NCBI RefSeq assembly: GCF_001440395.1
Contig: NZ_LLXZ01000102.1
Coordinates: forward strand, 30,482-94,481
Source of the DNA: Bradyrhizobium jicamae
GTDB lineage: Bacteria; Pseudomonadota; Alphaproteobacteria; Rhizobiales; Xanthobacteraceae
Direction of reading: 5' to 3'
DNA length: 64,000 nt
The translations under genes and the position numbers were made by a program. Of the stretch, positions 2,533-36,068 are shown piece by piece. Position 1 is the stretch's first letter. Each line of letters opens with the position of its first letter. A model generated the notes under the pieces. The model searched no databases, was not told the origin of the DNA, and worked only from the letters and a program-made list of their open reading frames with translations.

Positions 2533-5061
2533 ATGAACGCGCGGACACCCGGGGAGTGGGCAACCGTCATCTTTGGGCTCGGACTCATTCTGCTCGGGCT
2601 GGTGATCGGCGCGGGCGGCGTCTGGCTCATCGTGCTTGGCGGCTCGTGGTACTATGCCTTGGCAGGGTTCGGACTTTTGATGTCCGGGTTGTTGCTGACT
2701 CGGCTCAGCCAGGACGGCGCTTGGCTCTACTTCATCGTCTATCTCGGCACGTGGGTCTGGACGATATGGGAGGTGGGCCTCGATGGCTGGGCGATGGTGC
2801 CGCGCATTGTCGCCCCCACCGTGTTGGCGTTGATTATGCTCGCCATCCTTCCTGTGCTGCGCCGGCGCGGCGCAGTTCGGCCGCGATCGGTGCTCGGCCA
2901 GTTGCCCGCGGCGATCGCCGTGGCGGTGATGGCCGTTCTCGCGGGCGTGGCCAGCCTGCTGACGCCGCACGGGACGTCGTTGCCGCAATCGACCGAGCAA
3001 GCGGCGCAGGGGCCGGCCGTCGAAATGCGGGCTGCCGCGGAGACCACTGGCGTCGGCATTAATCGGGCTGTCGGCACGCTCGACCGCAACGGTGCAGACA
3101 CCTGGGTTGCCTACGGTGCCAACAACCACGCCACGCGCTTTTCGCCCGCAGATCAGATTACGCCCGAGAATGTCGCGAACCTCGACGTCGCGTGGCACTT
3201 CCACACCGGCGATTGGCCGGAGCGAAGCGACCCGGCGCTGCCGCCGGAAGCCGGCGCAGTGCGCTACGCTTTCCAGAACACTTCACTTAAGGTGAATGAG
3301 ACGCTCTATGTCTGCACGCCGAGCCAGCAGGTGATCGCGCTCGATCCCGCGACCGGTCAGCAGAAGTGGCGTTTCAACCCGGACGTCGACCGGCGTGCGA
3401 TGCGAAACGTAACCACCTCGACCTGCCGCGGCGTTGCATATTACGACACCAATTCGGCGGGCGCTGAATGTCGGAAGCGGATCATCTTCGGCACGCTCGA
3501 CAGTAGGCTGCTCGCCATCGATGCGGACAGCGGAGCGCCGTGCCGCTCGTTCGGAAAAAACGGCGCCGTCGACCTGAATGAAGGCATCGGCCGGACACTG
3601 CCCGGCTATGTGTCCGTGACGTCGCCGCCGACAATAGTGCGCGGGGTGGCGGTGGTGGGCCACCAGGTGATTGATGGGCAGTACCGCGACGCGCCGTCGG
3701 GAGTGGTGCGAGGGTTCGACGCGGCGAGCGGCGAATTCCGCTGGGCCTGGGACGTAGGCCGGCCTGGCGTCACCACGCAACCGGGGCCAAGCGAAACCTA
3801 TACCCGTGGTACGCCGAACGTCTGGACCATCATGTCTGCTGACGAGGAGCTCGGCCTGGTCTATCTGCCTACCGGCAACCCCGCGGTCGATTATTACGGG
3901 GGGAATCGGCGCCCATTCGACGAGCAGTACAACTCGTCCATGGTGGCGGTTGACGCCGTGACCGGCCGCGAGCGCTGGAAGTTCCAGACCGTGCACCACG
4001 ACATCTGGGACTACGACCTCGGCGCGCAGGCGACCCTCGTTGATTTCGCCACTGACGCCGGGCCGGTGCCGGCGATGATCGTGCCGACCAAGCAGGGCCA
4101 GCTCTATGTGCTCGATCGCCACACCGGGCAGCCGCTCACCCCAGTGGAAGAGCGGCAAGTGCCCCAGGGCGCGACTCCCGGAGACTGGACTTCACCTACC
4201 CAGCCGTTCTCCGTCGGCATGCCGAGCCTCGTTGGCGATCGGTTTGTCGAAAGCGATATGTGGGGCACGACGCCGATCGACCAGCTCTGGTGTCGCATAG
4301 AGTTCAATCGCATCCGCTACCGCGGCCCCTACACGCCGCCGGCATTGGGTGTGCCGACGGCGTACCAGCCAGGCTTCAACGGCGGCGTTGACTGGGGCGG
4401 CGTGGCGGTCGATCCCGAGCGCGGCTTTCTCGTCGTAAACAACAACAACCTACCGAACACGGTGCAGCTTCTCACCCGCGAGGAGGTGCAGCGGCGCGGC
4501 ATTCGGCCGGTCAGCGAGTCAGGTCCGCGCACCACCGGTGGCCTGTATCCGCAAGAGGGCGCGCCAGCCGGCGCATTCTCGGCGCCATGGCGCACGATCG
4601 CGCGCGTTCCGTGCACGCGTCCGCCGTGGGGCTTCATCGGTGTGATCGACCTAAAGACGCGGCGCTTCGTGTGGCGCCGGCCGCTTGGCACCGGCCGTGA
4701 CCACGGCCCGTTCGGTATTCCGTCGATGCTGCCTATCACCATGGGCACGCCGAACAACGGTGGCGCCGCGGTCACTCGCAGTGGTCTGATCTTCATCTCA
4801 GCGGCGCTTGACCGAGTGATACGCGCGTTCGACACGCGGAGTGGCAAGCTGCTCTGGCAGGCGCGCCTGCCAGCCGGCGGACAGGCGACGCCGCTCACCT
4901 ACATGTCGAACGGCCGGCAGTATGTAGTTATCGCCGCCGGGGGACACAACAGCATGGAAACAACTATCGGTGACAGCGTCATCGCCTATGCGCTGCCAGG
5001 CGCGATAAGCGAACAACGCGAAGTGACAATCGATCTCCGAACGAATCCGGCCTTCCCGTGA
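2533..5061 (+). CDS. gcd: Membrane-bound PQQ-dependent dehydrogenase, glucose/quinate/shikimate family
   Basis: This quinoprotein oxidises aldoses (glucose to gluconolactone) or quinate/shikimate in the periplasm and passes electrons to ubiquinone. The 842 residues comprise an N-terminal membrane anchor of about five segments (residues 12-145) and a PQQ beta-propeller, with typical stretches such as WVAYGANNHATRFSPADQI near residue 190 and FQTVHHDIWDYDLGAQ near 485. Length is close to E. coli Gcd (796). The start is supported by GGAGCAGGAC. A FixK-type box precedes it. Substrate choice within the family cannot be told by eye. A decayed N-terminal copy lies at 28674. Confidence 0.93.
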   Translation: MNARTPGEWATVIFGLGLILLGLVIGAGGVWLIVLGGSWYYALAGFGLLMSGLLLTRLSQDGAWLYFIVYLGTWVWTIWEVGLDGWAMVPRIVAPTVLALIMLAILPVLRRRGAVRPRSVLGQLPAAIAVAVMAVLAGVASLLTPHGTSLPQSTEQAAQGPAVEMRAAAETTGVGINRAVGTLDRNGADTWVAYGANNHATRFSPADQITPENVANLDVAWHFHTGDWPERSDPALPPEAGAVRYAFQNTSLKVNETLYVCTPSQQVIALDPATGQQKWRFNPDVDRRAMRNVTTSTCRGVAYYDTNSAGAECRKRIIFGTLDSRLLAIDADSGAPCRSFGKNGAVDLNEGIGRTLPGYVSVTSPPTIVRGVAVVGHQVIDGQYRDAPSGVVRGFDAASGEFRWAWDVGRPGVTTQPGPSETYTRGTPNVWTIMSADEELGLVYLPTGNPAVDYYGGNRRPFDEQYNSSMVAVDAVTGRERWKFQTVHHDIWDYDLGAQATLVDFATDAGPVPAMIVPTKQGQLYVLDRHTGQPLTPVEERQVPQGATPGDWTSPTQPFSVGMPSLVGDRFVESDMWGTTPIDQLWCRIEFNRIRYRGPYTPPALGVPTAYQPGFNGGVDWGGVAVDPERGFLVVNNNNLPNTVQLLTREEVQRRGIRPVSESGPRTTGGLYPQEGAPAGAFSAPWRTIARVPCTRPPWGFIGVIDLKTRRFVWRRPLGTGRDHGPFGIPSMLPITMGTPNNGGAAVTRSGLIFISAALDRVIRAFDTRSGKLLWQARLPAGGQATPLTYMSNGRQYVVIAAGGHNSMETTIGDSVIAYALPGAISEQREVTIDLRTNPAFP

Positions 5062-6619: not shown

Positions 6620-6672
6620 GGTAGAGCGTCGTCATCGTCGGTTACGAAAGCCAACCTGGTAAGGGGATGGAC

Positions 6673-8247
6673 ATGGTCGCGCGTACTGCCAAACGGAATT
6701 CCGATCGAGGCGATGCCACAGAACAGCCTCGCGCAAAAGGTCAAACGATAGACCTGCAACCTTATGATCGCTTCGAGCTGCTTCCGATCGCGGGCGACTG
6801 GCGTCACGGCCGGGCAGAAAGCAGGTTGGTTGACAAAAATCCTTATACCGACGACGTCCTCCTCGAAATCAAGCAGGCCGATCGCAGCGATCTTGATGCG
6901 GCATTTGCAGGGGGTGCCAAGGCTCAGGTGGAGTGGGCTGCCTCAGCACCGCCGGCCCGCGCGCAGGTATTTCGCCGGGCGGCAGAGATCATGGAAGCGC
7001 GCCGCGGCGAAATCGTCGATTGGCTGATCAGCGAATCCGGCAGCACGCGGCTCAAGGCGAATCTCGAGTGGGAAGTGACTCATACGGTCATGCTTTGGGC
7101 CATCTCGGTGCCGCATGCCGTCGAAGGCCGCATCATTCCGTCCGACATTCCGGGCAAAGAAAATCAAGTGCGGCGCAAACCGGTCGGCGTCGTCGGCGCA
7201 ATCAGTCCGTGGAACTGGCCGCTGCACCTGAGCAACCGCACCATCGCGCCGGCACTGGCGGTGGGAAACGCCGTCGTGGTGAAGCCGGCAAGCGACACGC
7301 CGGTGACAGGCGGACTGCTGTTGGCGAAAATTTTCGAGGAAGCCGGCCTGCCGGCGGGACTCCTCAGCGTCGTGGTCGGCGCGGGCAGCGAGATCGGCGA
7401 CGCTTTCGTCAGTAATCCCGTTCCGCGGGTGGTTTCGTTTACCGGCTCGACGCCGGTCGGCCGCAACATCGCGGAACTTGCGGCGAAGGCGCCTATCATC
7501 AAGCGTGTCGATCTGGAGCTCGGTGGCAATGCCCCCTTCGTTGTGCTCGCGGACGCCGATCTGGATCAGGCCATCGAGGCCGCAGTGTTCGGCAAGTTTC
7601 TGCACCAGGGCCAGATCTGCATCGCAATCAACCGCATCATTGTCGAGGAGGCCGTTTATCACACGTTCGTCGAGCGCTTCGCCGCGCGGGTCGCGAGGCT
7701 GAAAACCGGCGATCCCCGCGACAGCGAAACCATGGTCGGCCCGATCATCAACAACTCGCAGCTTCGCAAGTTGACGGAACGCATTGGCCGCGCCCGCGAA
7801 GTCGGCGCGAAGCAGGTGCTCGGCGGCGAGCCGGACGGATTGGTGTTGCCGCCGCATATCTTCGTGAACGTTACTAACCAAATGGAACTCGCAGCAGAGG
7901 AAATATTCGGGCCGGTGGCGCCGATCCTCCGAGTCGGCAGTGCCGAAGAAGCGTTGGCTGTGGCCAATGAAACGAGTTTTGGACTAAGCGGCGCCGTGTT
8001 CACGCGCGACGTGCACCGGGGCATGCACTTTGCCCAGCGAATGCAGGTCGGTATGGCCCATGTCAATGATCAGCCCGTCATCGATTTGCCGACCTGTCCG
8101 TTTGGCGGCGAGAAGAACTCCGGCATCGGCCGGTTCAACGGCTCCTGGGCCATCGAGGCTTTCACGACCGACCAGTGGCTGACGGCACAGCACGCGCCGC
8201 GAGGCTTTCCCTGGAATGCTTCCGCCGTGCGGGGGCCGTGGTCCTGA
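6673..8247 (+). CDS. NAD(P)-dependent aldehyde dehydrogenase
   Basis: A 524-residue enzyme of the ALDH superfamily that oxidises an aldehyde to an acid in the cytoplasm. Visible catalytic elements are the oxyanion Asn in ISPWNWPLHLSN, the general-base Glu in LELGGNAPFVV and the nucleophilic Cys in HQGQICIAINRI. It has about 30 extra N-terminal residues and resembles the benzaldehyde/vanillin-type group; the substrate is uncertain. AAGGGG directly abuts ATG 6667 but is 6 bp before ATG 6673, so I chose 6673. A FixK-type box precedes it. Confidence 0.93.
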   Translation: MVARTAKRNSDRGDATEQPRAKGQTIDLQPYDRFELLPIAGDWRHGRAESRLVDKNPYTDDVLLEIKQADRSDLDAAFAGGAKAQVEWAASAPPARAQVFRRAAEIMEARRGEIVDWLISESGSTRLKANLEWEVTHTVMLWAISVPHAVEGRIIPSDIPGKENQVRRKPVGVVGAISPWNWPLHLSNRTIAPALAVGNAVVVKPASDTPVTGGLLLAKIFEEAGLPAGLLSVVVGAGSEIGDAFVSNPVPRVVSFTGSTPVGRNIAELAAKAPIIKRVDLELGGNAPFVVLADADLDQAIEAAVFGKFLHQGQICIAINRIIVEEAVYHTFVERFAARVARLKTGDPRDSETMVGPIINNSQLRKLTERIGRAREVGAKQVLGGEPDGLVLPPHIFVNVTNQMELAAEEIFGPVAPILRVGSAEEALAVANETSFGLSGAVFTRDVHRGMHFAQRMQVGMAHVNDQPVIDLPTCPFGGEKNSGIGRFNGSWAIEAFTTDQWLTAQHAPRGFPWNASAVRGPWS

Positions 8248-20309: not shown

Positions 20310-20609
20310 ATGCGAAGTTCGTGTACCCGCATCGCTCTTGCCGCGTTCATCCTGGGCATTTGCAGCTCCATGGGTGCAGCCCAGCGGCAGAGTGAAGATA
20401 AAAAGTCGGAAGATTCTCCTTGGAGTACCGGACGCACGGTATTGCCGGACAACCAGGGGCAACCCCAGCCACAGGGCTGGACCGGCCCACTGTCGACCGG
20501 CACGGGCGGCGCGCCACCGACAAGTCCACAGGGGGGCACACCGCCAGACATGCAACCCGCGCCGGGCGGTGCGACCAAGAGCATCGTTGATCCTTCTCCT
20601 AAACAGTAA
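20310..20609 (+). CDS. Secreted Pro/Gly-rich protein of unknown function
   Basis: A 99-residue protein with a signal peptide (MRSSCTRIALAAFILGICSS, cleavage after GAA) and a low-complexity mature part rich in Pro, Gly, Gln and Thr, such as GQPQPQGWTGPLSTGTGGAP. AGGGAGAG precedes the ATG. It is probably periplasmic and disordered. No family recognised. Confidence 0.65.
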   Translation: MRSSCTRIALAAFILGICSSMGAAQRQSEDKKSEDSPWSTGRTVLPDNQGQPQPQGWTGPLSTGTGGAPPTSPQGGTPPDMQPAPGGATKSIVDPSPKQ

Positions 20610-20802: not shown

Positions 20803-20816
20803 TTGATGTTTGTCAC
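20803..20816. promoter_or_regulatory. FixK/FNR-type box TTGATGTTTGTCAC
   Basis: Last base differs from the palindrome. 83 bp before the formate dehydrogenase locus. Confidence 0.55.
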
Positions 20817-20899
20817 GATACCCAGGGTCATACTGTGCGCATAGTGGGGATTGAGTTTGATCTCTAACGTCCGTTGGACCGCATGGGAAAGGCTCATGT

Positions 20900-21112
20900 A
20901 TGATGAAAGGACGTGTCCAGGCAGCCGTGTATCGGCGTGATCTGCTTCGCCTCGCGGTTGCAAGCACTGCTGCCGCGACCGTTGGAACGTTGACCATCGA
21001 GCCCATCGTGGCTGAGCCTACGGGTAGCGCCGGTAAGCGCAAGCCTCGTTACCAGGCGAACTCAGCCGAGGTTCAAAACTTCTATCGCGTCAACAGCTAT
21101 CCCGCCCGATAA
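20900..21112 (+). CDS. Formate dehydrogenase region Tat-target protein
   Basis: A 70-residue protein with a twin-arginine start, MMKGRVQAAVYRRDLLRLAV, and a short mature part ending AEVQNFYRVNSYPAR. This layout is the small Tat-exported protein always found just before fdhA in alpha/betaproteobacterial formate dehydrogenase operons (TIGR02811-type). AAAGG is 7 bp before the ATG. Its 10-bp spacing to fdhA indicates one operon. Confidence 0.88.
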   Translation: MMKGRVQAAVYRRDLLRLAVASTAAATVGTLTIEPIVAEPTGSAGKRKPRYQANSAEVQNFYRVNSYPAR

Positions 21113-21122
21113 GGAGGCGCGC

Positions 21123-24074
21123 ATGCTGTTCAGGAAGTCGGAACGTCGCAGCGGTCGGGGGCAAGCAGCTATCGCGCCGCCTCAACCACGCAGGGGCATT
21201 GATCGCCGCGCGTTCTTGAATCGCTCGGGCCTCACCGTCGGTGCGCTGGCGGTGCTTGGCGACCTGCCGCTCGGCCGCGTTCGCCAGGCGAAAGCCGGCC
21301 CGCCGCCTCCCGCGGGTGCCACGGTTAACACCCGCAAGAACATCTGCACACATTGTTCGGTCGGCTGTTCGGTTATCGCGACAGTCACGAACGGCGTGTG
21401 GATTGGGCAGGAGCCAGACTATGACAGCCCGATCAATCGTGGATCGCATTGCTGCAAGGGCGCCGCGGTCCGCGATGACGTCTTGAGTGAGCGCCGCTTG
21501 CGCTACCCCGTGAAGCTTGTCGATGGCCAATGGATGCGTCTGTCATGGGAGCAGGCCATCGACGAAATCGGGGACAAGCTTATTGAGGTTCGCGAGAAGT
21601 CCGGACCGGAGTCGGTGTACTGGCTTGGATCCGCCAAGTTCACCAATGAGGCCGCCTACCTCAACCGCAAGCTTGCGGCCTTCTGGGGCACGAACAATTC
21701 CGACCACCAGGCGCGTATCTGCCATTCCACGACGGTCACCGGGGTAGCCAATACCTGGGGCTATGGCGCGATGACCAATAGCTACAATGATATTCGAAAT
21801 GCCAAGACCATCATGGTCATGGGTGGCAACCCGGCCGAGGCGCACCCGGTTTCGCTTCAGCACATTCTTGAAGGCAAGGAGCTGAACCGGGCCAACATGA
21901 TCGTCATCGATCCACGAATGACGCGGACGGCCGCGCACGCGACCGAGTATGTTCGCGTTCGCCCCGGAACCCACATCGCGACGATCTACGGCATGCTTTG
22001 GCACATTTTCCAGAACGGCTGGGAGGACAAGGAATTTATCCGCCAGCGGTCGTACGGCATCGACGAGATCCGCAGGCAAGTCGCGAAGTGGACGCCCCGG
22101 GAAGTCGAGCGTGTTACAGGTCTGCCGGAAGCACAGGTCAAGCACGTCGCGGAAATGTTCGCCAAAGAGAGACCCGCAACATTGATCTGGGCTATGGGTC
22201 AGACGCAATTCTCGACCGGTACAGCGAACGTCCGTGCCAGTTGCATACTGCTGCTGGTGACAGGCAACGTCGGAGGTCCCGGAGGCGGCGCCAATATTTT
22301 CCGTGGGCACACCAATGTGCAGGGCGCTACCGATCTCGGCCTCGATGTGACGACGTTGCCACTCTATTACGGCCTGACCCAGGATGCCTGGCAGCATTGG
22401 TGCCGGGTATGGGAGGTCGATTACGACTGGATCGCTTCGCGCTTCGCGAGCAAAACGCTGATGGAAACTCCGGGAATTCCTAGCACGCGCTGGTTCGACG
22501 CGACTTTATTGCCGAAGGATCAGGTCGCACAGCCCGACAATGTGCAGGCGATGTTCGTCATGGGACATGGCGTCAACACGATCACGCGGATGCCGGAAGC
22601 CAAGCGAGGGATAGAAAAGCTCGAACTGCTAGTGGTGTGTGATCCCTATCCGACCGCATGGTCGGTGCTTTCGGAACGCAAGAACGGCATCTATCTTTTA
22701 CCGGCCTGCACTAGCTTCGAGATGGATGGTTCGCGGACCGCCTCGAACCGCTCGCTGCAGTGGGGCGAGAAGATCGTGGACCCGGTGTTCGAATCGAAAA
22801 ACGACTACGAGACGATGTATCTGCTCGCCCGCAAGCTGGGTTTCGCCGACCGGATGTTCAAGAACATCAAGATAGAAAACGGCGCGGTATCGGCGGAGGA
22901 TATTCTGCGCGAGATCAATCGCGGTGGCTGGTCGACCGGCTATTGCGGACAATCGCCGGAACGGCTCAAGGCGCACATGAGGAACCGGGGCAAATTCGAT
23001 CTTGTCACCTTGCGTGCGCCGAAGCATGATCCGGAAGTGGGCGGAGACTATTACGGCCTGCCGTGGCCGTGCTGGGGGACGCCTGAGTACAGACATCCGG
23101 GTACGCCGATTCTCTACAATACCAATCTTTCGGTAAGCGAAGGCGGCGGCACGTTCCGCGCGCGGTTCGGCGTCGAACGCATCGTCAAGCGCAAGGTGAT
23201 GGAGAACGGGCAGGAAGTCGAAAAGGAGCAACACGACAATTTACTTGCTGAAGGCTCGTATTCGGTCAGTTCCGAAATCAAGGACGGCTACCCCGAGTTT
23301 ACGCTGGCCGTGCTGAAGAAACTGGGCTGGGACAAGGACCTGACTCCGCAGGAAATGGAGGTCATTCAACGCGTCAATCGTGCCAATCCCGATGCGGTGT
23401 CATGGGCGCTGGATCTCTCCGGCGGGATTCAACGTGTCGCGATCGAGCACGGCTGCTCGCCGTACGGCAACGGCAAGGCGCGCATGATCGCCTGGAATTT
23501 GCCTGATCCGATTCCGGTCCATCGCGAACCGATCTACACCCCCCGCCCGGATCTCGTGGCTGATTATCCGACGCTGCCGGATGCCAGGCAATTCCGCGTG
23601 CCCAATATCGGCTTCAGCGTCCAGAAGGCTGCCGTTGACAAAGGCATTGCCACGCAGTTTCCCCTGATCCTGAATTCGGGCCGGCTTGTCGAATATGAAG
23701 GCGGCGGCGAAGAGACGCGATCCATTAAATGGCTAGCAGAGCTGCAGCAGCACATGTTCGTCGAAATCAATCCGACGGACGCTCGCGCCCGCGGAATCAA
23801 GGATGGCGGATGGGTTTGGGTGACCGGGCCGGAGAGTAATTCGAGGGCTCGCATGAAGGCCTTCGTGACGGAAAGAGTAGGCGAGGGAGTGGCCTGGATG
23901 CCTTTCCACTTTGCCGGTTGGTACGAAGGCGCCGATCTGCGTCACAAGTATCCGAAAGGTGCCGATCCGATCGTACTCGGCGAGAGCGTGAACACGCTCA
24001 CGACCTACGGATACGATCCATCGACCGGCATGCAGGAGCCGAAGGCCACCCTTTGTCAGATCAGGGCGGCGTAA
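21123..24074 (+). CDS. fdhA: Formate dehydrogenase alpha subunit (Cys type)
   Basis: The 983-residue molybdopterin subunit oxidises formate to CO2 in the periplasm. It has a twin-arginine signal (RRGIDRRAFLNRSGLTVG), the [4Fe-4S] cysteines in NICTHCSVGCSVIA and GSHCCKGAA, and Cys-His at the metal site (HQARICHSTTVTG), where E. coli FdnG has selenocysteine. Strong AAGGAGG precedes the ATG. The gene looks intact, but the electron-transfer beta subunit that should follow is a remnant and no gamma subunit is present, so its function here is doubtful. Confidence 0.95.
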   Translation: MLFRKSERRSGRGQAAIAPPQPRRGIDRRAFLNRSGLTVGALAVLGDLPLGRVRQAKAGPPPPAGATVNTRKNICTHCSVGCSVIATVTNGVWIGQEPDYDSPINRGSHCCKGAAVRDDVLSERRLRYPVKLVDGQWMRLSWEQAIDEIGDKLIEVREKSGPESVYWLGSAKFTNEAAYLNRKLAAFWGTNNSDHQARICHSTTVTGVANTWGYGAMTNSYNDIRNAKTIMVMGGNPAEAHPVSLQHILEGKELNRANMIVIDPRMTRTAAHATEYVRVRPGTHIATIYGMLWHIFQNGWEDKEFIRQRSYGIDEIRRQVAKWTPREVERVTGLPEAQVKHVAEMFAKERPATLIWAMGQTQFSTGTANVRASCILLLVTGNVGGPGGGANIFRGHTNVQGATDLGLDVTTLPLYYGLTQDAWQHWCRVWEVDYDWIASRFASKTLMETPGIPSTRWFDATLLPKDQVAQPDNVQAMFVMGHGVNTITRMPEAKRGIEKLELLVVCDPYPTAWSVLSERKNGIYLLPACTSFEMDGSRTASNRSLQWGEKIVDPVFESKNDYETMYLLARKLGFADRMFKNIKIENGAVSAEDILREINRGGWSTGYCGQSPERLKAHMRNRGKFDLVTLRAPKHDPEVGGDYYGLPWPCWGTPEYRHPGTPILYNTNLSVSEGGGTFRARFGVERIVKRKVMENGQEVEKEQHDNLLAEGSYSVSSEIKDGYPEFTLAVLKKLGWDKDLTPQEMEVIQRVNRANPDAVSWALDLSGGIQRVAIEHGCSPYGNGKARMIAWNLPDPIPVHREPIYTPRPDLVADYPTLPDARQFRVPNIGFSVQKAAVDKGIATQFPLILNSGRLVEYEGGGEETRSIKWLAELQQHMFVEINPTDARARGIKDGGWVWVTGPESNSRARMKAFVTERVGEGVAWMPFHFAGWYEGADLRHKYPKGADPIVLGESVNTLTTYGYDPSTGMQEPKATLCQIRAA

Positions 24075-24086
24075 GAGGATAGAGTC

Positions 24087-24440
24087 GTGGTGCGCATGAA
24101 ACTCCTTTGTGCCGACCGCAACATCGACTGCAATTCCTGCGTCACCGCCCGCAAAAACGAGAATGACGTCCCCAGGAGAATGACGGCAAGCCCGGTGAGC
24201 GTTCGGTTTCGATGGGCTGCATGCATTGCACGGGCCCACGCTGTGCGGAGGTTTGCCGTGTGGACATGCATCAATCCGACAGACGATTGCATCGTGCTGC
24301 TTCGGAAGATTTGCGCATCGGCTGCGGCTACTGCTTCTATGCTTGCCCGCGCGCGGCGCCGCAGTATCCGATGGTCAATTTCGGGTCTCGCGGTAAGATG
24401 GAAAATGCCCTTACTGCGCCCGTTGCGGCGTCCCGGAAGC
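24087..24440 (+). pseudogene. Formate dehydrogenase beta subunit remnant
   Basis: The start reads MKLLCADRNIDCNSCVTARK, matching the first ferredoxin motif but with one Cys changed to Arg. After about 29 codons the frame shifts by one; the second frame then reads GCMHCTGPRCAEVC and IGCGYCFYACPRAAPQYP, and breaks off after GSRGKM, about half way through the usual 200 or so residues. Both the frameshift and the truncation disable the iron-sulfur electron relay. Confidence 0.8.
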
Positions 24441-24459
24441 GACCGGCGACGCCGGCTGA

Positions 24460-24830
24460 AGCTGGAATCGGACCCTGCCCAGCCCAGGGACCGCGCGTCG
24501 ATTGGGGCCTTTGATCCGGCAAGCCTGCCATCGATCGAAACAATCGCCGCTGAGACCGATATCCGCGCATTTCTGGACGAACGCGTGCCCTCCGAGCTGA
24601 CGCGCCTTGCGCTACGCCGGGCGTGGGCGAGCGATCCTGCAATCCGAGACTTCATTGGAATCGCGGAAAACCAATGGGATTTCAATGATCCGAATGCAAT
24701 CCCCGGCTTCGGTCCGCTGCGGGCAAGCGACAATCTGCTAAGTCTTCTTGTGCAGCAGGCGCTCGGCAATGCCGACAGGCTCGCGGAAACAATGGCGGCA
24801 TTTCCGGCGTCTCGCGCGCAAGCGCAGTCG
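24460..24830 (+). pseudogene. DUF3306 protein remnant
   Basis: FDPASLPSIETIAAETDIRA and NQWDFNDPNAIPGFGPLRAS are the core of the DUF3306 family, found with formate dehydrogenase genes in Bradyrhizobium-type genomes. The normal N-terminus is missing; the DNA is fused directly to the truncated beta subunit. The reading frame is part of one 461-codon open frame that runs from the beta-subunit start into the TorD remnant, which would encode a chimera. Confidence 0.6.
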
Positions 24831-25104
24831 TCTGTGCTGGATCGCGAGGCCACAAATCTTGACCGGAGTGCGGGCAGGACATTAGACGTTGCGTCGGAAA
24901 CCCGCCCCAATCCTGGAAGGTTGGCCGTTGGCAGCGACGCGAAAGGCGGATGGGTGGACGCCCCGGCCCAGGCATCGCGGCGGGCAGCGGTCGCGCTGCT
25001 GATACATATGGTGGTGCGCCGAACCGGCGTTCGCATGGCAGTGCCTTGCCGCGGATCAAGGTTTGACTTGAGGCAACGTCCGGCTGAGCCACAGGCCGAA
25101 ACGA

Positions 25105-25700
25105 GAACCAAGCGGATGCAAGAGCCGACCTCACCCTTACTGCCTGAATCCGCCGTCGATGAGATCGACTGTACGCGGGCGCGGGAATACGCGCTGCTCG
25201 GAACGCTGCCTTCTCACAGTCCCGATGCCCGACTGATCGGTCAGCTTGCGCTGCTGATGGGCGACGCGACGCTCGGACGAGCTCATGCCTTGTTGGGGAA
25301 GGCCCCTGCCGCTCGAGCGAGCAAAGCGCTGCGCGGGAGTATTTCGATTTGTTTGTCGGGTTCGGACTCGGCCGGCTGCTGCCGGATGCGTCCCATTATC
25401 TGGCCGACTCGCTGTACGGCCGTCCGCTCGCCAGCCAGCGTGACACCCTTTGGCGGGCTCTGCGTCGATTAGGCCGTCCGAACCCGAAGATCACGTTTCA
25501 ATCCTTGCGAGGTCATGGCGGGTCTGATCGCAGGCGAGATCGTCGCTCGGGCTGGTGCCGATCGCGAGTTCTTCGAAAACTACCTCGCGCCATGAGCGAA
25601 GCGGCTTTTTGTCGACCTCGAACACGCAAAATCGGTTCAATTTTGGAAACCCAGCGCACGAACTTGAGGTCGCCGGCCGTATCGGCTGAACCTTCCCGGT
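25105..25700 (+). pseudogene. TorD-family chaperone remnant
   Basis: TorD proteins mature molybdoenzymes such as formate dehydrogenase. The first part reads DEIDCTRAREYALLGTLPSH in the frame of the upstream remnants; after a shift at about 25330 it continues EYFDLFVGFGLGRLLPDASH and YLADSLYGRPLASQRDTL, and after another shift MAGLIAGEIVARAGADREFF. At least two frameshifts make it non-functional. The ferredoxin-like gene usually found between DUF3306 and torD is absent. Confidence 0.7.
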
Positions 25701-25765: not shown

Positions 25766-26530
25766 TCACGAAAGATCGGAAGCAGCAATCCAATAGTATC
25801 TGACCTCCCAATAGTCGTAGACGTCCTGGTTGCGGGCCCGAGCTGTTAGTTCCCAGTTTTCCCCTTGCTCGACCTTCGGCGCGTTCTTTATCTCCTCTTC
25901 GGTGATGTCCACCTGGAAGCCATCTGGCTTTTCATTGCAGGTCAACATCGACCAGGGAATAGGGTAGTGGTCCTCTCCGATGCCGAGGAAGCCGCCGAAA
26001 CTCAGGATCGCGTAGGCGATCTGGCCCGTGAGTTTGTCGATCATCAGGCGCTCGACCTTCCCGATACGCTTGCCGTGTACGTCATAGACCGGCATTCCTT
26101 CCACGCTGTCGCTGGTGATGAGGGACGAAGTGTGGCCCTCTTGCACCGGTGCGGGTTGCTCCCAATAACCATGGACCCGCTCGTCGCGGTCCGGGTTCGC
26201 TTGCTCCCAGCCTTCCACTGGTTCGGCCTTCGGGGCTTTCTTGAGTTGCTCCTCGGTGATCTCGACGCGATATCCACCGAGCTTCTCATCGTAGTTCAGC
26301 ATCGGCCAGGGAATCGGATAGTGAGTCCCTCCGATACCGAGGAATCCCCCGAAACTCAGGACCGCGTAGACGATGCGGCCGCCGGCCTTGTCGATCACTA
26401 GCCGCTCGACCTTCCCAATGCGCTTGCCCTGCGCGTCATAGACCGCAGTGCCTTCGACGCGATCGCTTGCGATCAGGGAAGACACAGTTCCGCTCTCCGT
26501 CGCGGGTGTGCGCTGCATTGTAGTCACCAT
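25766..26530 (-). CDS. Double PRC-barrel domain protein
   Basis: A 254-residue soluble protein built from two PRC-barrel repeats, at about residues 17-95 and 135-215: each has VYD-x-GKRIGKVERL, FGGFLGIG and HYPIPW-x-ML, and ends in an EITEEQLKKAP/DITEEEIKNAP helix. There is no signal peptide. The last 40 residues (YDYWEVRYYWIAASDLS) are aromatic. AAGGAG lies 9 bp before the ATG, and an exact FixK-type box 121 bp upstream. Function of such proteins is unknown; they accompany stress genes here. Confidence 0.88.
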   Translation of the reverse strand: MVTTMQRTPATESGTVSSLIASDRVEGTAVYDAQGKRIGKVERLVIDKAGGRIVYAVLSFGGFLGIGGTHYPIPWPMLNYDEKLGGYRVEITEEQLKKAPKAEPVEGWEQANPDRDERVHGYWEQPAPVQEGHTSSLITSDSVEGMPVYDVHGKRIGKVERLMIDKLTGQIAYAILSFGGFLGIGEDHYPIPWSMLTCNEKPDGFQVDITEEEIKNAPKVEQGENWELTARARNQDVYDYWEVRYYWIAASDLS

Positions 26531-31620: not shown

Positions 31621-32988
31621 TCACGCCACCATCACGGTTTTGATGTTGACGAACTCCCTGATGCCGTAGCAGGACAATTCGCGCCCATAGCCGCTTTCCT
31701 TGATGCCTCCAAAGGGCACCCTCGGATCGGAACGAACGTTGTCATTGACGAAGACCATTCCAGATTCGATCTCGAACTCTGCGATCCGTTCGCCGCGCGC
31801 AAGATCGCGGGTGATCACGGCACCGCCAAGTCCGAATGGGGTGTCGTTCGCGACCGCAATCGCCTCGGTCTCGTCCAGGGCCGGGATGATTGCCGCAACC
31901 GGGCCGAACAATTCCTCTTCATAGGCCGGCATGCCTTTCCTCACCTCGGTGAGAACTGTCGGCGGGTAGTAGGCTCCCGGATGATTGGGCACAATGCCGC
32001 CGAGCAGCAGGCGTGCACCCTTTCCGACGCTTGCGACGACCTGCCGGTGCAACGTGTCGCGCAAATCGTGCCGCGCCAGCGGTCCTATCTCTGTCCCATG
32101 CTCGAATGGGTCTCCCATTTTAGTCTGGCTCATCAGCTCGACAAAGCGCTTCTCGAAAGCCGGCCTGGCCTTCTCGACCACGATGAATCGCTTGGCGGCG
32201 ATGCAGCTCTGGCCCGAATTCAGCAGCCGGCCTCTGGCGCAAATGGCGGCGGCGGAGTCGGTATCGGCATCTTCCAGGACCAGATAGGGGTCGCTGCCGC
32301 CGAGTTCGAGCACCGTCTTTTTGAGCATGGCGCCAGCCTTGCTCGCGACCGCGCGTCCGGCGGCGCCGCTGCCCGTCAGGGTCACCGCGCGCACGAGCGG
32401 ATGCTCGATCACGGCCTCGACTTGCTTGCTTGTGATCATCAATGTGCGGACTAGATTTTCGGGAAATCCGGAGTCGCGAAAAATCTGTTCGATCGCAAGC
32501 GCACAACCCGGCACGTTTGAGGCATGTTTGAGCAGTGCGGCATTGCCTGCCATCAGGCTCGGCACTGCAAAGCGAAAGACCTGCCAGAACGGAAAATTGC
32601 ACGGCATCACCGCGAGCACGACCCCGATCGGATTGAACGTGACGAAGGTCCTGCGTGCCTCCGTCCTTATCGGGTGACGTGTCAGGAAATTCTTCGCATT
32701 GTTGGCAAAGAACTCGCAGGCCTGGGCACATTTCTCGGCTTCCGCGACGCCGTCATGGAGGGGCTTTCCCATCTCCTCCGCCATTAGTTGCGCATATTCG
32801 CGCGCCTTCTTGTTCAGGATCTCGGCGGCGTTGCGCATCAGTGAAGCGCGGTGTTCGAAATCGGTTCGGCGCCAGGAGAGGTAATCCCGGTTAACCTTGC
32901 CGACGACGTCTTGCGCCTCCTCGGTCGACCATCCCTCATATGTCGCAAACGGCTCACCGGTGGTGGGGTTGATGGATTGAAATGTCAT
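31621..32988 (-). CDS. NAD(P)-dependent succinate-semialdehyde-type dehydrogenase
   Basis: A 455-residue aldehyde dehydrogenase. It begins MTFQSINPTTGEPFATYEGW and has the catalytic Asn (VMPCNFPFWQVFRFA), Glu (LELGGSDPYLVL) and Cys (LNSGQSCIAAKRF). It resembles the short succinate-semialdehyde dehydrogenases (GabD/Sad group) that feed the TCA cycle from GABA. The frame extends to 33027, but ATG 32988 fits the family start. It is convergent with trxC (18 bp between the ends). A FixK-like box is 81 bp upstream. Confidence 0.9.
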   Translation of the reverse strand: MTFQSINPTTGEPFATYEGWSTEEAQDVVGKVNRDYLSWRRTDFEHRASLMRNAAEILNKKAREYAQLMAEEMGKPLHDGVAEAEKCAQACEFFANNAKNFLTRHPIRTEARRTFVTFNPIGVVLAVMPCNFPFWQVFRFAVPSLMAGNAALLKHASNVPGCALAIEQIFRDSGFPENLVRTLMITSKQVEAVIEHPLVRAVTLTGSGAAGRAVASKAGAMLKKTVLELGGSDPYLVLEDADTDSAAAICARGRLLNSGQSCIAAKRFIVVEKARPAFEKRFVELMSQTKMGDPFEHGTEIGPLARHDLRDTLHRQVVASVGKGARLLLGGIVPNHPGAYYPPTVLTEVRKGMPAYEEELFGPVAAIIPALDETEAIAVANDTPFGLGGAVITRDLARGERIAEFEIESGMVFVNDNVRSDPRVPFGGIKESGYGRELSCYGIREFVNIKTVMVA

Positions 32989-33069
32989 GGCGGATGGTCC
33001 TCGCATCGCGCTCGGCTCGAGCGGCACTCGCTGCGTCGATCACCATGAGTATGCGAGGTTCGATAGACC

Positions 33070-35169: not shown

Positions 35170-35183
35170 TTGACCGCGGTCAA
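35170..35183. promoter_or_regulatory. FixK/FNR-type box TTGACCGCGGTCAA
   Basis: Perfect palindrome midway between divergent hsp20 (154 bp) and the Crp/Fnr gene (150 bp). It may serve hsp20 and give feedback control on the regulator. Confidence 0.7.
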
Positions 35184-35333: not shown

Positions 35334-36068
35334 ATGAAGGCGAAAACGCGCGCACTGGACTACTATCGGCGAATGTTAGCCGCGCAGAACCATGCAATGA
35401 AGGGGCTCGATGAGCATGCCAAGATTATGCTGTTTGCCAGGAGCCAGGAGGTTCCAGTCAATTCGGAGCCGGCGGCCCATTGGTACTACGTAATCACGGG
35501 GGCGGTCCGGCGATCCGCCATCCGTTCAGACGGGCGACGGCAGATTCTCGACTTGATGTTGCCGGGAGATTTCTTCTTCGTCGTCGATAGAAACGAAGAT
35601 CAAACGGTTGAGGCGATCGCGGAGGAAACAACACTGGCAAGTTACTCTGGTCAAAGGGTCGAGCAATTGGCGCAGCGCGATGTGGAGTTCGCCCGCGAGC
35701 TCCGCAATGTCGCATTCCAGACCATGTCGCGGATTCAGGATCAGTTGCTGATCATTGGCGGCGTAACGGCGGTCGAAAAGGTCGGTTCATTCCTGCTTGC
35801 GTTGGCGAGCCGTTCGTCGAACGATAAGGGGCAGATCGTATTGCCCCTGACGCGCTACGACATCGCCGAGTATCTCTCGGTTTCGGTCGAAACCGTTTGT
35901 CGTTCCTTCACCAGCCTGCAGCAGCGTGGCGCGATCAGGCTGGCTGGAAAACGCACCGTCAGGATCATTAATCGAAATGTCTTGGAGGAGAAGAACGAGC
36001 ACGAAGTTGACGCATGCCCAGCCGCACCATCATACGCGCGCGGTGAATCTCGATCGTGCGCACACTAA
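35334..36068 (+). CDS. FixK-like Crp/Fnr family transcription regulator
   Basis: A 244-residue activator with a cyclic-nucleotide-type beta-roll (about 40-115) and a C-terminal HTH, LTRYDIAEYLSVSVETVCRS. Glu186 and Arg190 in the recognition helix are those used by FNR/FixK to read TTGA, matching the boxes in this window. It lacks the N-terminal Cys of FNR, so it is not an iron-sulfur sensor. Cys189 in this helix recalls the redox-reactive Cys of Bradyrhizobium FixK2. The last 24 residues are read through antisense DNA of a broken response-regulator gene. Good ribosome site (GGAAGG). Confidence 0.92.
   Translation: MKAKTRALDYYRRMLAAQNHAMKGLDEHAKIMLFARSQEVPVNSEPAAHWYYVITGAVRRSAIRSDGRRQILDLMLPGDFFFVVDRNEDQTVEAIAEETTLASYSGQRVEQLAQRDVEFARELRNVAFQTMSRIQDQLLIIGGVTAVEKVGSFLLALASRSSNDKGQIVLPLTRYDIAEYLSVSVETVCRSFTSLQQRGAIRLAGKRTVRIINRNVLEEKNEHEVDACPAAPSYARGESRSCAH

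Follow-up and report, generated by a model that had tools for sequence, protein, structure and literature searches.

INTRODUCTION

In Escherichia coli the subunits of formate dehydrogenase-N (FDH-N) are encoded in one operon. In Pseudomonas aeruginosa a partial operon, that of an orphan cbb3 oxidase subunit, reportedly supplies a subunit to a respiratory complex that is otherwise encoded elsewhere. The FDH3 type of formate dehydrogenase is represented by a solved alpha chain (9vap_A) and a profile of the beta subunit (NF038355), and its operons are expected to have intact fdhB and fdhC genes beside fdhA. We analysed a 64,000-nt stretch of DNA (the window) on contig C102 of a Bradyrhizobium genome (G000), which is an 8.73 Mb draft of 235 contigs. 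Its formate dehydrogenase locus, operon A, has an uninterrupted fdhA, an fdhB remnant and no fdhC.

RESULTS

The second fdh type of Bradyrhizobium

A survey of 265 genomes of the genus gave fdhA matches at E <= 1e-200 in 179. The genus is assigned from shared fdhA sequences: in 11 of 15 groups of identical sequences, a locus of a surveyed genome is paired with a named Bradyrhizobium record, three of the remaining groups are one genome present twice, and one consists of two named records. Among the matches listed, sorted by score, 40 fdhA genes from 36 genomes, the window included, are at least 84% identical to the window copy, and the next is 75% identical. By this identity criterion the group is a second fdh type of Bradyrhizobium. 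Named records of this type have the gene order tat-fdhA-fdhB-fdhC-(polyferredoxin)-DUF3305-DUF3306-torD, the polyferredoxin being assigned by eye. A preliminary description of the window had held that the usual order, with DUF3306 and torD before fdhA, was disturbed. We rejected this claim because named second-type loci likewise carry both genes downstream of fdhA, so that their position in operon A is normal. Operon A thus shares its gene order with loci such as that of B. erythrophlei GAS478 (L027), and fdhA of such loci is 84-89% identical to the window copy. They differ in that their fdhB and fdhC are intact, whereas the window lacks everything from the 3' part of fdhB to the 5' part of DUF3306. 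We pooled 50 second-type fdhA loci from several searches, a set in which several genomes are counted twice; 48 of these loci also contain an fdhB that is matched, in a single frame, over at least 85% of its length. The window is one of the two exceptions, and the other, L042, is truncated within fdhA by a contig end.

Operon A retains fdhA and remnants of its partner genes

The features of operon A, together with a regulator gene further downstream, are given in Table 1. The preliminary description had held that the Tat protein gene and fdhA look complete, and this proved correct. FdhA keeps the motifs RRAFL (residue 28), ICTHCSVGC (residue 74) and RICH (residue 198), which we take to be the Tat, 4Fe4S and active-site (Cys-His) motifs, respectively, and PF04879, PF00384 and PF01568 score above their cut-offs in a Pfam profile search. 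The predicted protein has all of the FDH3-type alpha-subunit features (Tat signal, 4Fe4S motif, active-site Cys-His and molybdopterin domains). Its score of 456 bits with TIGR01591 (Fdh-alpha) falls short of the cut-off of 666. This model does not seem to be set for FDH3-type alpha subunits, because the canonical copy on contig C120 of the same genome also scores below the cut-off (458.5 bits).

Table 1. Features of operon A and a candidate regulator gene (window coordinates)
Feature	Position	Strand	Evidence and remarks
FixK/FNR-like box TTGATGTTTGTCAC	20803..20816	+	One mismatch to TTGAYNNNNRTCAA; begins 97 bp upstream of the Tat protein start
Intact small (70 aa) twin-arginine (Tat) protein, of the kind present in formate dehydrogenase loci	20900..21112	+	TIGR02811 20.8 bits, E 3.5e-4, below cut-off 48.45; homologues at the same position in related loci
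fdhA, formate dehydrogenase alpha subunit, 983 aa, uninterrupted, under purifying selection	21123..24074	+	TIGR01591 E 1.7e-136, below cut-off; closest solved chain 9vap_A; branch omega 0.078
fdhB remnant covering the 5' two thirds of the gene; frameshifted, internal gap of 28 nt, 3' end gone, three cluster-motif Cys replaced	24087..24470	+	
461-codon frame across fdhB, DUF3306 and torD remnants	24087..25472	+	Pfam matches DUF3306 alone within
DUF3306 fragment, N-terminal part absent	24468..24755	+	PF11748 E 4.9e-13, profile 45-120 of 120; tblastn
torD chaperone remnant, several indels	25125..25661	+	tblastn 34%
Crp/Fnr-family regulator, resembling FixK most closely; candidate for recognizing the boxes	35334..36068	+	HTH_Crp_2, cNMP_binding; FixK model 120 bits, below cut-off 300

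Downstream of fdhA, the fdhB remnant aligns in two different frames to codons 1-30 and 42-134 of the 198, and it has single-base indels relative to an intact copy. With NF038355 (FDH3 beta) it reaches 81 bits in one search and 63 bits in another, against a cut-off of 240 bits. The segments RNIDC, TARK and DLRIG stand in place of RCIDC, TACK and DICIG of the intact copy; three cysteines are therefore substituted in the aligned remnant rather than the single one that the preliminary description had reported missing. The other damage described there was all found again: a frameshifted and incomplete fdhB joined to a truncated DUF3306, a frameshifted torD with several indels, and a single 461-codon frame spanning parts of all three genes. 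Compared with the intact operon of the related genome G020, about 4.4 kb is absent between the fdhB and DUF3306 pieces, and the DUF3306-torD stretch has 80% DNA identity with indels present. A profile scan of the flanking frames at 20310-20609 and 25766-26530 matched no electron-transfer family. We conclude that decay of the partner genes beside fdhA is genuine.

Two further fdhB-fdhC sets are present in the genome

The genome contains two fdhA genes of the FDH3-type family, those of the window and of contig C120, which are 70% identical; the next match is 30% identical. The second full fdh locus that the preliminary description had proposed to look for was found on C120, which has a complete canonical set of fdhA, fdhB, fdhC, torD, DUF3306 and DUF3305 frames, the TorD and DUF3305 profile matches lying below their cut-offs. 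There are two FdhD genes in the genome.

A second locus, operon B (L025), lies on C102 at ~113.1 kb, outside the window and 58.6 kb downstream of the end of the window fdhA. It consists of a box-bearing promoter region, a 5' remnant of tat, a short 3' tail of fdhA, an intact fdhB, an fdhC with a frameshifted end, and DUF3305, followed by frames judged by eye to encode DNA ligase. The fdhB genes of operon B (C102:113123; 325.6 bits) and C120 (332 bits) both exceed the FDH3_beta cut-off of 240 bits. FdhC of operon B (L025:10769-11704) scores 135 bits with TIGR01583 (FDH gamma; cut-off 115.85) over profile positions 1-179 of 204, its C-terminal part being lost through a frameshift that affects the last 30 to 42 codons in G000; the gene is in frame in the related genomes G093 and G110. 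Judged by gene content, operons A and B are reciprocally eroded and complementary, A keeping tat and fdhA, and B keeping fdhB, fdhC and DUF3305. As a piece of the fdhA 3' end and a piece of fdhB occur in both, they represent two operons and not a single operon cut in half.

fdhA remained constrained while fdhB decayed

Selection was examined with a branch codon model that assigned a separate omega to the window branch. For fdhA (n=8 sequences) the window-branch omega was 0.078 compared to a background of 0.063, a difference that was not significant (2ΔlnL 1.4). A value of 0.10 was allowed (2ΔlnL 2.15), and values of 0.12 (6.45) and 1 (122.5) were rejected. This dN/dS analysis, another of the checks proposed in the preliminary description, placed fdhA at the background level, and decay of fdhA was supported neither by pairwise nor by branch codon models.

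In the fdhB remnant 122 codons were usable, for which the same model (8 sequences, hand-set tree) gave an omega of 0.23 versus a background of 0.026 (2ΔlnL 31.4), and dN on the window branch was 0.152 for the fdhB remnant versus 0.030 for fdhA. A fully neutral branch was rejected for the fdhB remnant as well (2ΔlnL 12.9), as expected if fdhB worked during the first part of the branch. By arithmetic from these branch-model values, the excess dN over background is ~0.14 for the fdhB remnant and ~0.006 for fdhA. From this contrast we infer that fdhA remained useful well after its cis fdhB had died.

For operon B, fdhB of G000 and G093 differ by 12 synonymous and 3 non-synonymous changes. Omega was 0.048 on the G093 branch (neutral rejected, 2ΔlnL 9.8) and 0.185 on the G000 branch, where changes were too few to reject neutrality (2ΔlnL 0.4). 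For fdhC, omega was 0.31 in G000 (2ΔlnL 6.0), 0.47 in G093 (6.9; not distinguishable from neutral at 1.5) and 0.13 in G110, where the gene is not relaxed. These estimates for fdhC speak against a fully maintained gamma subunit of operon B.

Operons A and B in related genomes

In G093, locus B lies in the same surroundings, with fdhB 99%, fdhC 90-91% and DUF3305 92% identical. The neighbourhood of operon A is also present there, with an eroded torD remnant and no fdhA; no FDH3-type fdhA was found in this genome, the best match being 34% identical. Operon B is therefore not strictly tied to operon A. In an alignment of G000 and G093 the tat remnant runs into the same stretch of the fdhA tail in both genomes. 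Among the window frameshifts examined, no inactivating torD change was common to the two. In G110 only fdhC (85%) is left at locus B, and a canonical fdhA is kept. Among the loci examined, fdhA of A and fdhBC of B occur together in G000 only.

Two side observations concern genes without their usual neighbours. G093 (L176, L177) has fdhB and fdhC without an FDH3-type fdhA, and of these fdhB looks constrained and fdhC relaxed; they may have another partner, or the loss of fdhA may be recent. The G110 fdhC (cytochrome b; L178 9875-10777) is under normal constraint with neither fdhA nor fdhB adjoining.

Phylogenetic analysis grouped the window fdhA with L179 (G020), L180 (G230) and L108 (UFBoot 98). 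Placement with six other loci, whose own clade has a support of 29, was rejected (AU 3e-49). The fdhB remnant grouped with L067, L161 and L168 (UFBoot 80) and not with the G020 copy; L161 and L168 are G230 and G076 loci of the fdhA clade that holds the window. For operon B, fdhC grouped with L149/L116 (UFBoot 100) in a clade of 13 (93), and moving it to L179 was disfavoured yet not rejected (AU 0.062). Its fdhB grouped with the MAG locus L039 (UFBoot 100), which sits elsewhere in the fdhC tree. From these trees, operons A and B are likely to be of different ancestry.

FixK/FNR-like boxes upstream of both operons

The preliminary description had stated that the promoter box of operon A is still present. 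A box is indeed found there, but it is one base off the motif TTGAYNNNNRTCAA, which we take to be of the FixK/FNR box type. The window contains 18 exact sites for this motif, compared to a mean of 0.05 over 20 mononucleotide shuffles, and the whole genome contains 133, compared to 7 for the reversed control. When at most two mismatches to TTGATNNNNATCAA were allowed, the window had 58 sites versus 20.5 in dinucleotide shuffles, and 0 of 100 shuffles reached 58. One exact box (35170-35183) lies upstream of the Crp/Fnr regulator gene. Given this coincidence with a FixK-like regulator gene, we consider the boxes to be putative FixK/FNR sites.

Operon B has a one-mismatch box starting 106 bp before its tat remnant and an exact one further upstream. 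The 26-nt block that holds its box, TTGACGTCCGTCAT, is identical in G000, G093 and G110. The 17 kb C120 stretch (L024) has no exact box, its one-mismatch sites being at 604, 2033 and 5231, the last inside fdhC. In the stretch from 560 to 190 bases before fdhA, a box was found in 2 of 34 distinct loci, exact in L116 and with one mismatch in the window; outside G093 and G110, the L116 genome has the fdhC closest to that of operon B. A promoter common to the operons of relatives was rejected, as the upstream regions align poorly, and a sigma-70 scan was of no use (3 found versus 1.6 in shuffles).

The window as a whole appears to be a dense island of putative FixK/FNR-controlled genes (PPK2, Hsp20, Hsp70, Lon, Usp and PRC-barrel), holding 18 of the 133 exact genome boxes in 64 kb of 8.7 Mb. 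The same island encodes a PQQ-type dehydrogenase and two aldehyde dehydrogenases (2533-5061, 6667-8247 and 31621-33027), which with fdhA could possibly form an alcohol-aldehyde-formate oxidation set.

DISCUSSION

The preliminary description had left two readings of the locus, that fdhA is on its way out or that it uses partners encoded elsewhere. The latter fits better, because fdhA is at background constraint and two other fdhB/fdhC sets are present in the genome. We consider it probable that window FdhA functions with FdhB and FdhC encoded elsewhere, by operon B and/or by C120. This probability has two components: a pairing of A with B, the larger one, is by itself somewhat short of an even chance, and a pairing of A with C120 only is the smaller. 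The conclusion draws on the anatomy of the loci, on the constraint that fdhA kept while the adjoining fdhB decayed, and on the existence of partners in trans.

According to this model, an island with many FixK-like boxes would once have contained two operons of the same type, separated by ~60 kb. Operon A would have lost the region from the 3' part of fdhB through the 5' part of DUF3306, and operon B most of tat and fdhA, leaving each with a FixK/FNR-like box and one of two complementary halves of the gene set. The present state would be a membrane-bound, Tat-exported formate dehydrogenase assembled in trans, in which the FdhA of operon A is combined with an iron-sulphur subunit (FdhB) and a cytochrome b subunit (FdhC) that are encoded by operon B, by the canonical C120 operon or by both; C120 would also supply TorD, DUF3305 and DUF3306. 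The expression and co-regulation of the genes, the export and assembly of the enzyme and its choice of partner are predictions of this model. Type, promoter and position favour operon B as the natural partner; C120 is the safe alternative and would probably provide the functions of TorD, DUF3305 and DUF3306. The pairing with operon B would describe paralogous respiratory operons eroded until neither suffices, with alpha from one and beta plus gamma from the other, 58.6 kb apart and kept in step by the same oxygen-responsive box type, yielding a formate dehydrogenase of mixed ancestry; we put this forward tentatively. Three findings speak against the trans model: fdhC of B is relaxed and frameshifted at its tail, G093 has lost fdhA, and the combination was found in one draft genome.

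Loss of the cis partners and cis chaperone, and the absence of fdhA from G093, could instead mean that fdhA is a pseudogene in waiting, which lost its constraint so recently that no trace of the loss shows yet. In window FdhA, 10 positions that are otherwise invariant carry unique changes, the second highest number among 33 proteins, and some are not mild (K672S, G716S and N868I). However, L179, a relative with an intact operon, has 14 such changes, and the excess of non-synonymous changes per site is ~0.006 in fdhA compared to ~0.14 in the fdhB remnant; we regard this explanation as rather improbable. Nor do we give much weight to a soluble periplasmic FdhA that passes electrons to another carrier without FdhB or FdhC. 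In favour of such an enzyme, nothing in cis is intact apart from fdhA and the Tat protein, but the retention of fdhB beside fdhA in 48 of 50 second-type loci and the scanned neighbour frames make it very improbable. Finally, the draft state of the assembly raises the question of a sequencing or assembly artefact. Sequencing error is unlikely because the remnants have 66-80% DNA identity to intact relatives with many indels and because the A neighbourhood of G093, with its eroded torD, shows a pattern of erosion of its own; G093 also shares locus B, including the short tail of fdhA. An artefact is thus scarcely credible.

The reading that FdhA is served in trans includes a narrower case, in which FdhA would work only with FdhB and FdhC of C120 and operon B would be a decaying leftover. 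The C120 locus is complete, its FdhB is 85% identical to that of operon B, and the state of the operon B fdhC agrees with such a leftover. On the other hand, FdhA of the window and of C120 are only 70% identical and FdhC of operon B and of C120 only 47%, fdhB of operon B still shows few amino-acid changes, and its box-bearing promoter block is identical in three genomes, in contrast to the C120 stretch with its lack of an exact box. We therefore consider dependence on C120 alone to be unlikely, albeit less so than incipient loss of fdhA.

Partnership in trans, if correct, provides a natural example of a membrane complex whose subunits appear to be split over two damaged operons while the catalytic gene is still selected. 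The contrast in rate can be measured between neighbours 12 bases apart, fdhA and the fdhB remnant, and the locus offers a system for testing the exchangeability of FDH subunits among paralogous sets. It also cautions that annotation as a decayed operon need not equal a dead enzyme. Among the papers listed on Bradyrhizobium formate dehydrogenase/FixK2, DUF3306, membrane FDH3 (Methylorubrum), reciprocal operon gene loss and orphan catalytic subunits, no title or abstract opening mentions this arrangement.

Comparison with known systems places the locus closest to FDH3-type formate dehydrogenase. The match of window FdhA to 9vap_A spans residues 15-982 and scores 1180 bits, and the likeness extends to the beta genes of operon B and C120, which exceed the FDH3_beta cut-off. 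Unlike that system, the window has no operon with all subunits, alpha being apart from beta and gamma in two eroded operons. FDH-N of E. coli (1kqf) is similar as well, since residues 4-182 of its cytochrome b chain (1kqf_C) align with FdhC of operon B and the window alpha subunit matches 1kqf_A; its genes lie together, whereas here the subunits are split. The orphan cbb3 subunit of P. aeruginosa resembles the present case in that a partial operon reportedly contributes a subunit to a respiratory complex whose remaining parts are encoded elsewhere. There, however, the extra subunit stands next to full operons, whereas here neither of two same-type operons is complete and the two complement each other.
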